A stretch of 46,379 bases of DNA from Fidelibacterota bacterium (GTDB taxonomy: Bacteria; Pseudomonadota; Alphaproteobacteria; Rhodospirillales; Rhodospirillaceae), in the NCBI GenBank assembly GCA_947475895.1, contig CANJMF010000022.1, positions 1 to 46,379 on the forward strand, read 5' to 3'. Positions 10,450 through 42,391 of this stretch are shown here, piece after piece; position 1 is the first letter of the stretch, and each line of letters begins with the position of its first letter. The translations under genes and the position numbers were made by a program. A model generated the notes under the pieces. That model saw nothing but the letters and a program-made list of their open reading frames with translations. It was not told the DNA's origin and searched no databases.

Positions 10450-10947
<498 letters not shown>

Positions 10948-34840: not shown

Positions 34841-34865
34841 GGAACTTAATGTGGCTCTATACGTT
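34841..34865 (+). promoter_or_regulatory. EcfG-type promoter for the response regulator
   Basis: GGAAC, 16 bases, CGTT. The -10 element ends 8 bp before ATG 34874, so the transcript would start at or within a few bases of the start codon. Confidence 0.75.
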
Positions 34866-34873
34866 CAGGTCTC

Positions 34874-35269
34874 ATGACCAATCCCGTTCTCACTGGAAAA
34901 CGTATCGCCGTCATCGAGGACGAGGCGCCCTTGAGTCTGGTGCTCGGCATCATGCTCGACGAGTTGGGCTGCGTGCAGGCGGGTTCGGCGCGCACGCTCA
35001 CCGACGCGCTGCATTTGGCGAACGGTGTCGATGCTGACGCCGTGCTGATGGATTACCGTCTCAAGGACGAACGCAGCGAGCCTGCGGCGCTGCGGTTTCT
35101 CGAGCGCGGCATTAAGGTCATTCTGACGACCGGGGCCGAAGCGGAATCGCTGCCCGCGACGCTCAGCCCGTGCGATGTCATGCCCAAGCCATTTGGTCTG
35201 GCGAATCTTGAAGATCACCTCGTGCGCGCGTTCGAAACCGCACAAAAGCAAAGCCCGCCAACTCCGTGA
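34874..35269 (+). CDS. Single-domain response regulator (CheY-like)
   Basis: 131 residues, a lone receiver domain with an acidic pair in IAVIEDEAP, phospho-acceptor Asp in AVLMDYRL, the Thr in VILTTGAE and the Lys in VMPKPF. There is no output domain, so it probably acts by protein contact or as a phosphate sink. An EcfG-type promoter ends 8 bp before the ATG and there is no clear ribosome site, consistent with a leaderless mRNA. Single-receiver proteins under EcfG (for example SdrG in Sphingomonas) feed back on PhyR signalling, so a similar role is plausible here. Confidence 0.9.
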   Translation: MTNPVLTGKRIAVIEDEAPLSLVLGIMLDELGCVQAGSARTLTDALHLANGVDADAVLMDYRLKDERSEPAALRFLERGIKVILTTGAEAESLPATLSPCDVMPKPFGLANLEDHLVRAFETAQKQSPPTP

Positions 35270-36999: not shown

Positions 37000-37322
37000 T
37001 TATGTTTCCTCCCTCACTGTGCAGAAGTTATTCGGGCGCAGACCAAGGCGCGGCCGCGCGAAACCGGTCCCATTTGTGTGGTGAAATGCGTAATTACCCT
37101 CCCGTGTAATTACCTCTCCCCTTCGATCATCCTTTGCAGGATGATAAACGCAGAGCGCGTTAGAGAGCACGGTAGCACGATCCTAGGGCGAGACAATTCC
37201 CTTAAACAGGGTAATTGAACGCAGATGCGTGTGCGCCAATGTGAGCAATGCCAATGGGATAGCGGCGGCAACGCGAGCTCTCGCGCAAACGTTTCAACCG
37301 CGAAAAATTATCTCTCAAAGCG

Positions 37323-37347
37323 GGAACTTCTGTCCTAAGCGGGCGTT
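37323..37347 (+). promoter_or_regulatory. EcfG-type promoter for a small RNA
   Basis: GGAAC, 16 bases, CGTT on the plus strand. No open reading frame follows; an intrinsic terminator lies about 80 bp further on. Confidence 0.8.
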
Positions 37348-37352
37348 TTATT

Positions 37353-37460
37353 ATTGATCCTGGCGCGTTCCCCCAAGCGCTTCCCCCCCCCCCCGCGCTA
37401 CGCTGGGATCCCTGTGACTAAATAAATGGCCCTTCCGTTTCTACGGAAGGGCCTTTTTTT
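37353..37460 (+). ncRNA. gsrN: Small RNA with C-rich loop, GsrN-like
   Basis: A predicted transcript of about 105 nt from an EcfG-type promoter (37323-37347) to a perfect intrinsic terminator (37428-37460). It contains no plausible ORF. Predicted folds are GAUCC (37356-37360) pairing with GGAUC (37406-37410) and, inside, AGCGC (37376-37380) pairing with GCGCU (37395-37399). The inner stem exposes a 14-base loop of UU and twelve C. A further C5 run lies at 37370-37374. GsrN of Caulobacter crescentus is EcfG-dependent, about this length, and pairs through a C-rich loop with G-rich sites in targets such as katG mRNA. Homology is inferred from architecture, not alignment, so the symbol is provisional. 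Confidence 0.72.
37428..37460 (+). terminator. Intrinsic terminator of the small RNA
   Basis: Perfect 10-bp stem GGCCCTTCCG / CGGAAGGGCC, loop TTTCTA, then T7. Confidence 0.95.
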
Positions 37461-37486
37461 CACCGACGGGACTGTGAATAGATAGC

Positions 37487-37518
37487 CCAAAAGCAAAGGG
37501 CGGCATGAATGCCGCCCT
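37487..37518 (-). terminator. Intrinsic terminator of the SH3 gene
   Basis: Perfect 10-bp stem AGGGCGGCAT / ATGCCGCCCT with a 2-base centre, followed on the minus strand by TTTGCTTTT; 24 bp past the stop of the SH3-domain gene. Confidence 0.85.
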
Positions 37519-37541
37519 AAAAACGCCGCTGAAGATATCGT

Positions 37542-37982
37542 TTACTGACGAGAACTCGTGTTGGGTAAGGCGTCCCGTTCGGCCCCGCCGGAAGCGCGAT
37601 ACCAATCGTCACGATCCGCGTACCACGGACGCGTTTGGTAATTTTTTTCCCAATAGCTGCGCACGTCAAAACTTACGTTCGGAATGTTTAAGCTACGGCC
37701 GAGATCGCTCACGGAAGTGGAGGCATCTTGATAGGCCAACGTTAAGGCGCCGCCCATGACCCAGCCGCGATTTCCGCGCCACTCCACATCGCACCAATTA
37801 TAGTTGGCGACGCATCCGTGGATGGTGATGGCTCTGCCTGAGCTTAGACGCATGACTTGAGGAAAGTTGTCCCCGGGGCCGGCGAACATATGAACTGCGT
37901 CGGTCGTAAAAGCTTTCGCAGCGAGCGCGGGACCGGCGGCAAGGACTAAGAGCGCGCCGGCAAAAATGGAGGCGTACTTCAT
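37542..37982 (-). CDS. Exported bacterial SH3-domain protein
   Basis: 146 residues with a signal peptide ending at GPALAAKA and an SH3b-type domain (about 27-80: VHMFAGPGDNFPQVMRLSSGRAITIHGCVANYNWCDVEWRGNRGWVMGGAL) with a likely disulfide (GCVANYNWC). A charged, aromatic C-terminal tail follows (YWEKNYQTRPWYADRDDW). Such periplasmic SH3 proteins often bind the cell wall. ATG 37982 gives the signal peptide; an exact EcfG-type promoter lies 44 bp upstream. A terminator follows. Confidence 0.88.
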   Translation of the reverse strand: MKYASIFAGALLVLAAGPALAAKAFTTDAVHMFAGPGDNFPQVMRLSSGRAITIHGCVANYNWCDVEWRGNRGWVMGGALTLAYQDASTSVSDLGRSLNIPNVSFDVRSYWEKNYQTRPWYADRDDWYRASGGAERDALPNTSSRQ

Positions 37983-38025: not shown

Positions 38026-38051
38026 AACGTAGTGAAACCCCGCGTGGTTCC
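38026..38051 (-). promoter_or_regulatory. EcfG-type promoter for the SH3 gene
   Basis: On the minus strand GGAAC, 17 bases, CGTT, 44 bp before ATG 37982. Confidence 0.78.
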
Positions 38052-39590: not shown

Positions 39591-39809
39591 CTAGGCTTTC
39601 TCGTTTTTCTTTTCGTCCGCTTCATCGAGTTTTTCGAGAAGCTTGAGCAAATCCTTCGGCACCGGCTCCATCGCGACCGTGTCGAAGATGTTGTGAAGTT
39701 TTTTCTCCAGCCAATCGTCAAACGCCGGATTGATGCGCGCCTTGGATTCGCGGTGCGGCAAGTCTTTGCTGTCCGCAGGCGAGCGCTTTGAAGAATTTTT
39801 GTCGGTCAT
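39591..39809 (-). CDS. nepR: NepR anti-sigma factor
   Basis: 72 residues with the NepR core helices (WLEKKLHNIFDTVAMEPVPKDLLKLLEKLDEADE), the segment that binds EcfG and, after stress, PhyR. The N-terminal part is charged and disordered. ATG 39809 is chosen; a TTG at 39845 overlaps the ecfG stop but gives an atypical extension. It is downstream of ecfG in the same operon, the reverse of the usual nepR-ecfG order. Confidence 0.9.
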   Translation of the reverse strand: MTDKNSSKRSPADSKDLPHRESKARINPAFDDWLEKKLHNIFDTVAMEPVPKDLLKLLEKLDEADEKKNEKA

Positions 39810-39841
39810 GATGATCTGCTTCGGCTTGCTGGCTGGAAGGG

Positions 39842-40402
39842 TCAATAATTACCGGACGCGGCTTCCCGCGCTGGTTCCAGCATGGGACCGCCGTCGTCCC
39901 CGCCGCCGCTCTTCTTATCTTCGCCCATAATGAACGCGGCCATGCGCGCACGCGCGCGCCACAGCCGGCTTTTGATCGTGCCGACCGAACACCCCAACGT
40001 TTCGGCAGCTTCTTCGTAGCTGAGGCCGCTGGCGCAGATCAGGATCAGCACTTCGCGCTGACCTTGTTGGAGTTTGTTCATGGCCTGAATGACTTCGCGC
40101 GATAGCACGTCGTTCTCTTGCTCGCCTTTGCGCGCCAGAAACTCCGCGGGCATGTCTTCGATGGGCATCGGCTGGCGTTTTTTACGGCGTAGAGAGCTGA
40201 TGTATTCATTGCGCAGGATTTTATAAATCCAGGCCGTGAAGTTCGTGCCCATGGTGAATTGGCTCTGCGCGCGCAGGGCGCGGACTGATGTTTCTTGCAG
40301 CAGATCGTCGGCCAAGGCCCGATCGCGCGTGAGCATGATCGCATACGCCTGTAGGCGGGGCAGGTGTTGCAACAGCATGTCGTGGAATTCGTTCGTCGCC
40401 AT
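39842..40402 (-). CDS. ecfG: EcfG-type extracytoplasmic-function sigma factor
   Basis: 186 residues with sigma region 2 (LPRLQAYAIMLTRDRALADDLLQETSVRALRAQSQFTMGTNFTAWIYKILRNEYIS) and region 4 (LQQGQREVLILICASGLSYEEAAETLGCSVGTIKSRLWRAR). The region 2 and 4 sequences are typical of EcfG, the alphaproteobacterial general stress sigma factor. ATG 40402 follows AAGGGG. An EcfG-type promoter about 160 bp upstream (40560-40584) indicates autoregulation. The C-terminal tail (DKKSGGGDDGGP) is disordered. Confidence 0.94.
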   Translation of the reverse strand: MATNEFHDMLLQHLPRLQAYAIMLTRDRALADDLLQETSVRALRAQSQFTMGTNFTAWIYKILRNEYISSLRRKKRQPMPIEDMPAEFLARKGEQENDVLSREVIQAMNKLQQGQREVLILICASGLSYEEAAETLGCSVGTIKSRLWRARARMAAFIMGEDKKSGGGDDGGPMLEPAREAASGNY

Positions 40403-40559
40403 TCGCGGCTCATCCCCTTGCAGAAGCAATCATAGTCCCAATTTTCCGACGCCGTAAACCGCCGGAAATTGGCAGACAAACCGACAATAAAAGAGCACGG
40501 CCATCCGGCGGCTTCTGAGCGCCGGGACCGCGTGAACGAACTCCATCCCTCGCAACCAT

Positions 40560-41473: not shown

Positions 41474-41575
41474 CGTTGTTTGAGGGGATAACACTGCGCT
41501 TTTTCAGTAGCTTCGTCTGATTTCCCTGTTAGCTTCGCGAACGTGGATCTTTCTTTCGTTACAAGGGGACCTCAT

Positions 41576-42391
41576 TTGAAAAATACCGATCGCTCCATGT
41601 CGCTCTCACACGAGATCGCACCGCACCTTCCATTTTTGCGCCGCTACGCGCGCGCATTGGCGGGGTCCCAGGCCAGCGGCGATGCCTATGTACGTGCCAC
41701 GCTTGAAGCCATCATCGAGTCACCCGAGCGCTATCATCGCGACGTTCAGCCGCGCGTGGCGCTGTATCGTGTTTTCCACACCATTTGGTCGGGCACGCAC
41801 CCGGCGCGCGGCGCGGGCGAGATTTTGCCCGACGGCACCCTGCAAAGCCGGTTCCGCAATCGCCTGGACGCAGTGGGCGCGGCGCGGCGCCAAGCGTTAC
41901 TGCTAACGGCAATGGAAGATTTCTCGCCGGCGGAAGCCGCGCAAATTCTCGACACCACCACGGAAGATATCGGAGAGATGGTCGAAGGCGCTCTGTACGA
42001 TTTGGTGGCGCAGACCCCCACTTCGGTATTGATCATCGAAGACGAGCCCATCATCTCCATGGATCTTTCGAATATTGTGGAAGAGATGGGCCACAGCGTG
42101 CAAGCCGTGGTTACCACCCGCAAGGAAGCCGTTGCGGAAGCGAAGAAGGCCCAGCCGGGCCTCATTCTCGCCGACATTCAGTTGGCCGATAACAGTTCCG
42201 GCATCGACGCCGTAGGCGAGATTCTGGAGCGTATTAAGAGCCCGGTTATTTTCATTACGGCGTACCCTGAGCGTCTCCTGACGGGTGAGCGTCCGGAACC
42301 CACGTTCCTCGTCACGAAGCCCTTTGCTGCGGAAAGCGTCAAAGCGACCATCGCACAGGCCCTGCTGCTGGCCGAAGACGACGGGGCGTAG
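41576..42391 (+). CDS. phyR: PhyR general stress response regulator
   Basis: 271 residues from TTG 41576. The N-terminal sigma-like domain (SLSHEIAPHLPFLRRYARALAGS ... EAAQILDTTTEDI) mimics EcfG and binds NepR. The C-terminal receiver has LIIEDEP, phospho-acceptor Asp in LILADIQLADNSSGIDAV, the Thr of FITAYP and the Lys of VTKPF. On phosphorylation it takes NepR from EcfG. TTG 41576 is favoured by AAGGGGA about 7 bases upstream; the conserved family start would be ATG 41597, which lacks a well-placed site. No exact EcfG promoter is seen, only GGAAC-N17-CGAA at 41424. Confidence 0.94.
   Translation: MKNTDRSMSLSHEIAPHLPFLRRYARALAGSQASGDAYVRATLEAIIESPERYHRDVQPRVALYRVFHTIWSGTHPARGAGEILPDGTLQSRFRNRLDAVGAARRQALLLTAMEDFSPAEAAQILDTTTEDIGEMVEGALYDLVAQTPTSVLIIEDEPIISMDLSNIVEEMGHSVQAVVTTRKEAVAEAKKAQPGLILADIQLADNSSGIDAVGEILERIKSPVIFITAYPERLLTGERPEPTFLVTKPFAAESVKATIAQALLLAEDDGA

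Follow-up and report, generated by a model that had tools for sequence, protein, structure and literature searches.

A predicted C-rich small RNA of the GsrN kind, with a twelve-cytosine loop, beside the general-stress genes of a Rhodospirillaceae genome

GsrN of Caulobacter crescentus is a small RNA of about 106 nt with an EcfG/SigT-type promoter, a 3′ intrinsic terminator and a structured 5′ domain that holds six C in a loop (PMC5869019). The C-rich 5′ loop pairs with the katG leader, as was proven with compensatory mutants; the RNA is cleaved to a stable 5′ isoform and affects peroxide and osmotic survival (PMC5869019). Predicted homologues usually lie near the general stress response (GSR) locus, with C. 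crescentus an exception, and EcfG-dependent C-rich RNAs near that locus are described for Caulobacteraceae, where they were found by BLASTn, and for Rhizobiaceae, where position, promoter and expression identified them (PMC5869019). As a kind, EcfG-dependent C-rich RNAs near the GSR locus are known already. Predicted RpoE2 promoter motifs precede 23 sRNAs of S. meliloti (PMC3616915).

C-rich RNAs are described in other bacteria as well. The C-rich loops of sX13 of Xanthomonas act on G-rich motifs near start codons (PMC3771888), the SigB-driven C-rich sRNA RsaA of Staphylococcus aureus masks a Shine-Dalgarno site (PMC3961350), and a C/U-rich loop of RepG of Helicobacter pylori pairs with a homopolymeric G run, the repeat length setting the outcome (PMC8295292). 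Among the titles and opening parts of abstracts listed by searches of open-licence papers, none describes the RNA reported here, or an EcfG-dependent sRNA that contains a long C homopolymer.

The window analysed here is a whole 46,379-nt stretch of DNA from a Rhodospirillaceae genome. We consider it likely that positions 37323-37460 encode an EcfG-dependent, C-rich small RNA acting in trans; transcription, EcfG dependence, trans action and targets are what we infer, and the computed support comes from promoter motif, structure, covariation, conservation, predicted C-tract exposure and gene neighbourhood. An earlier note had described an exact EcfG-type promoter followed by some 105 nt of transcript region instead of a gene, and both are there. 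On the plus strand, which also carries all other parts of the element, GGAAC (37323-37327) and CGTT (37344-37347), as read from the sequence, are separated by a 16-nt spacer (promoter, 37323-37347), and the predicted RNA runs for about 107 nt (37354-37460), its start being placed by promoter spacing to within a few nt.

The structural parts listed in that note were likewise recovered. The outer stem pairs its 5′ arm GATCCTGGCG (37356-37365) with its 3′ arm CGCTGGGATC (37401-37410), and the inner hairpin (37376-37399) consists of AGCGC (37376-37380), UU (37381-37382), twelve C (37383-37394) and GCGCU (37395-37399). The intrinsic terminator (37428-37460) has a perfect 11-bp stem with arms at 37428-37438 and 37443-37453, followed by T7 (37454-37460). 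To these the analysis adds a further exposed tract, UUCCCCC (37368-37374, its C5 being 37370-37374), lying on the 5′ inner side of the outer stem next to the inner hairpin; a conserved linker after the stem, CCUGUGACU (37411-37419), in an alignment block that averages 0.92 column identity; and the shorter apical loops, C5-C6, of the relatives. The predicted fold energy of 37351-37460 is -42.3 kcal/mol, against a mean of -26.0 for 200 dinucleotide shuffles, none of which was as low (z -5.58). Both C tracts of the window RNA are predicted to be unpaired (probability 0.98 and 1.00), and the same holds for the predicted folds of all six known members, with a mean unpaired probability of 0.94-1.00 for the C run of the first tract and 1.00 for the apical run.

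These members were found by a DNA search of 41 genomes, 18 of them congeners, which gave the own genome and five true congener matches (genomes G012, G013, G003, G002 and G004), the weakest being G004 (E 0.0022). GGAAC-N16-CGTT stands at the right distance in all five relatives, so that the exact motif is present in six members of six. A covariance model built from G012, G002 and G004 found the three members not used in it: G003 (E 2.1e-13), G013 (6.9e-13) and the window (6.4e-12). A model of all six (R2) places the RNA in 6 of the 19 genus genomes at E <= 9.9e-15, members matching by construction, and its best further match in the genus has E 0.005. The exact hairpin pattern, which a diverged copy would escape, occurs in the same six among 73 family genomes and in one of 23 genera.

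Conservation is distributed as in an RNA gene. Across the six members the -35 and -10 boxes do not vary, column identity in the spacer is 0.56 on average, and the columns of the C tracts and loop average 0.85-0.94; the alignment behind these values has the inner hairpin out of place in three members. In a structure-fitted alignment, 98.6% of cells pair over 26 pairs (slid controls, at most 51.3%). Two-sided changes affect 9 of these 26 pairs, 5 of 10 in the outer stem and 4 of 11 in the terminator, against 4.1 by shuffle; none of 500 shuffles reached that number, and none reached the covariation score. Five covariation measures were computed; for one, further pair types, 74 of 500 shuffles equal or exceed the observed value, which is unremarkable. 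The inner stem AGCGC/GCGCU is identical in all six and is thus uninformative on covariation. Even a plain MAFFT alignment, with the inner hairpin misplaced, retains two-sided changes in 7 of 20 pairs, in the outer stem and terminator. The element is not a product of chance, since five other genomes of the genus carry it beside the same SH3-domain gene, with invariant boxes and compensatory changes in the outer stem. By such comparison the RNA gene is well supported, its transcription being presumed.

The gene neighbourhood is one of stress genes. Convergent with the RNA lies a gene with an SH3_3 domain (PF08239; 37542-37982, minus strand, ATG read at 37982), itself preceded by an EcfG-type promoter motif (38026-38051, minus), and an SH3-domain homologue is convergent with the RNA in all five relatives. 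From 2.1 to 4.9 kb downstream of the RNA follow nepR, for the anti-sigma factor (39591-39845, minus, frame from its TTG; PF18557 at its cut-off, 25.7 bits), ecfG, for the general-stress sigma factor (39842-40429, minus, frame from TTG with an ATG at 40402; Sigma70_r2/r4), and phyR (41543-42391, plus; PhyR_sigma2, PhyR_sigma-like, Response_reg), with nepR/ecfG at 2.1-2.4 kb. GGAAC-N16/17-CGTT occurs nine times in the window, where 0.98 would be expected and none of 100 shuffles reaches nine, and the region looks like a general-stress island. The order response-regulator gene, RNA, convergent SH3 gene is found in all five relatives; the window differs in having two enzyme genes between the first two. 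The single-domain response regulator gene of the window (34841-35269, plus) has an EcfG-type promoter motif of its own, and in the five relatives the homologous gene immediately precedes the RNA. A close ecfG shares the contig of the RNA in three of the five (G003, G012 and G002); in G013 and G004 the RNA contigs, only 6.2 and 7.7 kb long and too short to decide the matter, have no ecfG match.

Presence of the RNA was also compared with the sigma factor. The window ecfG product is 82% identical to those of G003, G012 and G002, which have the RNA; the next congener, G007 at 76%, lacks it at a convincing score. The best ecfG matches of the two remaining carriers are not close (54% in G013, 33% in G004). 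Around ecfG in the genus genomes without the RNA, and around the second-best ecfG of G013 (stretches L039-L047), nothing scored below E 0.16, and reading parts of L039 and L041 by eye revealed no such RNA. An order-wide EcfG search with a strict cut (1e-30) matched 13 of 199 genomes, a count from which no lack of the stress response follows. RNA model R1, run over 199 genomes of the order, matched 15 of them at E <= 0.1 (best non-own match, 4.7e-4), and the non-own matches were rejected: none of the 19 non-own places listed, all of which were read, has GGAAC-N16/17-CGTT, although one (L072) has a looser GGAAC...TGTT, and they look like plain terminators. Members may have escaped this search, in which strict filters applied and no more than 20 first-look candidates of a genome were scored. 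Since 6 of 19 genus genomes carry it at a convincing score and 6 of 73 family genomes show the exact hairpin pattern, the RNA is young or often lost, and it is not a fixed part of the stress response.

The earlier note had called the C tract unusually long, which is true of this genome and not of the family. The apical run is 12 in the window and 5, 6, 5, 5 and 6 in G003, G012, G002, G013 and G004, and C12 is therefore special to the own genome; likewise the first tract is C5 in the window and C3-C4 in the five relatives. Among the 13 C/G runs of at least 8 that the own 3.3-Mb assembly contains, C12 ranks first in length, and it matches exactly once in the window and in none of 100 shuffles.

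A second C-rich RNA-like element of the own genome bears on this tract. It lies on another contig (C5:122426-122551, plus; L223:3927-4052) behind a GGAAC-N16-CGTT promoter, with C5 and C8 tracts in the loop of its stem and C6 in the terminator loop, and the C8 (C5:122482) is one of the other twelve C/G runs of at least 8. Relatives of it, with a main tract of C6 and a terminator loop of C6, are present in G012, in G003 and twice in G004 (L224:3305-3416, L225:2911-3022, L226:2720-2842 and L227:2613-2732, all minus), which makes at least five members in four genomes. Two more candidates, on contigs C64 of G001 and C22 of G015, have no such fold and were rejected. The stem of this second family displays tracts of C4-C5 and C6-C8, and among its five members there are four different stems: the one in G012 and one of those in G004 are near-identical, and the remaining stems differ in sequence while the C tracts are kept. 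Because two families keep C tracts while most stems differ, exposure of the C runs appears to be what selection keeps. On the five second-family members the first-family model scored E 0.00054, 0.011, 0.015, 0.019 and 1 (over 173 kb), weak values that fit a likeness of design, with distant kinship possible. Some 27 kb from the second RNA, a second EcfG-like sigma factor is encoded (C5:94551-95036), 59% identical to that of the window.

The main tracts are longer in both C-rich EcfG-promoter RNAs of the own genome than in their relatives (C12 versus C5-C6, and C8 versus C6), a comparison made after the fact on two loci only, and the two RNAs together hold 2 of the 13 C/G runs of at least 8 in the assembly. 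C12 is best explained as a lineage-specific lengthening. A more speculative reading, to which we give rather little weight, treats this run of C as a contingency repeat, prone to slippage, within a trans-acting stress RNA. Each C gained or lost would then alter the strength of pairing with every G-run target simultaneously, a reversal of the situation in RepG, whose variable repeat sits in one target mRNA. The C12 tract lends itself to a test of whether repeat length can serve for tuning in a regulator and not in a target.

By analogy with GsrN, sX13 and RsaA, the RNA most likely acts in trans and probably works like GsrN. EcfG would transcribe it when the general stress response is on, with the intrinsic terminator forming the 3′ end; the outer stem of the 5′ domain would hold out the two unpaired tracts, UUCCCCC and the apical loop of UU and C12; these would nucleate base-pairing where an mRNA leader or ribosome-binding site offers a run of G, and the translation and stability of the mRNA would rise or fall as a result, in the manner of GsrN in Caulobacter. 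The katG gene is hardly the target here because it is only a fragment (window 10504-10857, minus; C22:10504-10857) that covers 119 of 716 model positions and is the only katG match in the 36-contig assembly. The earlier note had recognised this remnant and had concluded that the target set must differ, a conclusion that fits the fragment. In the own genome G6 stands within 2-30 nt before ATG at 168 places, overlaps included, and the reversed pattern, as a control, at 89; this excess names no target, as Shine-Dalgarno bias explains it equally. The remaining eleven C/G runs of at least 8 in the own genome, read in context, gave no clear leader target. GGGG is present in 6 of the 11 window leaders examined and in 24% of random 130-nt stretches; that of the SH3 gene sits in the promoter spacer, and that of the ecfG leader recurs near the start in G003 and is absent there in G012 and G002. 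In the ecfG and phyR leaders of these three relatives GGGG is not steadily kept, and the searches of the own genome and the window leaders yielded no convincing target of the RNA.

Several other accounts of the element were weighed. The window RNA might be a true GsrN orthologue diverged beyond sequence recognition, as could be suggested by the same size and part order, the display of C at the 5′ end, the promoter of EcfG type and the location close to GSR genes. We hold this to be unlikely: the family model does not match the C-rich RNAs near ecfG in Rhizobiaceae, a convincing copy is missing from 13 of 19 genus genomes, so that descent from GsrN would need many losses, and the katG mRNA targeted by GsrN has only a gene fragment as its counterpart here. 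C-rich sRNAs, moreover, occur also in unrelated bacteria (sX13, RsaA; PMC3771888, PMC3961350). Another account takes the element as mainly the terminator of the convergent SH3 gene, which ends at 37542, with the upstream part as untranslated spacer. The hairpin is symmetrical, scores weakly when read on the minus strand (25.2 bits, E 0.0048), and could serve that gene as well; as the whole explanation this is very improbable, for it leaves unexplained the invariant EcfG boxes, the covarying outer stem and the conserved C tracts.

It is less credible still that the element encodes a micropeptide and acts as a short mRNA. Each of the six members does contain short frames that begin with TTG, GTG or ATG, but these are not common to the six, and the RNA, of about 107 nt with an intrinsic terminator, has no conserved reading frame; the only frame of at least 8 codons in G013 starts at a GTG in the linker and runs into the terminator. 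More weight, though still little, belongs to the view that the RNA is real and that its C12 is in truth a C5-C6 tract, misread in sequencing or assembly. Homopolymers are error-prone in sequencing, and every relative has the shorter run. This is nevertheless improbable, since the second RNA of the own genome is also longer (C8 versus C6), as is the first tract of the window RNA (C5 versus C3-C4), and a miscount by six bases or more is hardly to be expected of short reads, an argument that applies if the assembly is a short-read one. A small RNA gene with a lengthened C tract remains our preferred reading.

Known families and genomes were searched for a closer match. With a permissive threshold, Rfam gave none at gathering for 37250-37520 and 11 weak matches, of which the best, anti-hemB (19.8 bits against a gathering cut-off of 49.5), was rejected. 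In the whole genome of Caulobacter segnis two patterns of promoter and C run found no sure gsrN. One place (G219:C4:551117, minus; L196, L244), a short RNA candidate, combines a C5 tract and an EcfG-type promoter motif with a strong hairpin resembling a terminator; it was rejected as GsrN because it is shorter and its loop misfits the GsrN targets given in Table 1 of PMC5869019. At another (G219:C4:835704, plus; L231:2205) an EcfG-type promoter motif precedes a leader whose hairpin carries C5 in its loop, CCGUUCCCCCAAACGG, and a frame that begins MRKLIVMA comes next.

We also scanned ecfG loci, namely the genus stretches L039-L053 and 80 named loci, and obtained 18 candidates: five genus members, L085 (taken as G012) and 12 others. 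Five of the latter were accepted: L112:7253 (plus), L118:7219 (plus; Pelagibacterium limicola), L120:7434 (minus), L124:7255 (plus) and L164:8308 (plus; Rhodoplanes tepidamans), the remaining hosts being Rhizobium wenxiniae and two Neorhizobium. The weaker candidates at L101, L108, L139, L140, L158, L160 and L162 were not accepted, and a stricter scan kept only L085, L118, L124 and L164. The five accepted elements, four of which were folded, lie 1.6-2.8 kb from an ecfG homologue and have an EcfG-type promoter motif, C5-C8 tracts (C5 and C8 in R. tepidamans) and a terminator. Over the 80 named loci, model R2 was convincing only at L085; it gave E 0.023 at Rhodoplanes L164 and no match at the RNAs of L112, L120 and L124.

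The predicted RNA can thus be set against the described systems. By every feature that sequence can show, the promoter counting as a motif only, it is of the GsrN kind. The earlier note had called it the counterpart of GsrN, and promoter type, size, locus, 5′ C-rich display, terminator and RNA-gene-like conservation uphold this as to kind, though not as to common descent. Set against the published description, it shares with GsrN the EcfG-type promoter motif, the size (about 107 versus about 106 nt), the exposed 5′ C tract and the terminator; it differs in having two tracts, one of them of twelve, where GsrN has six C in its 5′ loop, and in that the GsrN target katG is only a fragment in the own assembly (PMC5869019). 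The Rhizobiaceae candidates (L112, L120 and L124), 2.5-2.8 kb from an ecfG, resemble it in promoter motif, exposed C5-C6 tracts (L112 and L120 were folded) and terminator, and differ in their stems, which the window-family model does not match. As described, sX13 is alike in having several C-rich loops that act on G-rich sites and unlike in its regulation, its locus and its three separate stem-loops with C4-C5 (PMC3771888). RsaA, by its description, is also a C-rich sRNA driven by a stress sigma factor, but that factor, SigB, is unrelated and the phylum another (PMC3961350). In RepG the variable repeat is in the target mRNA, whereas here a long repeat is in the sRNA, in one assembly (PMC8295292). 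The GsrN idea, of a stress sigma factor commanding a C-rich RNA, is hereby extended to a lineage outside those in section 14 of PMC5869019, and what is added is a whole family of RNAs, with covariation among its members, a model to search for it and a neighbourhood that is conserved.
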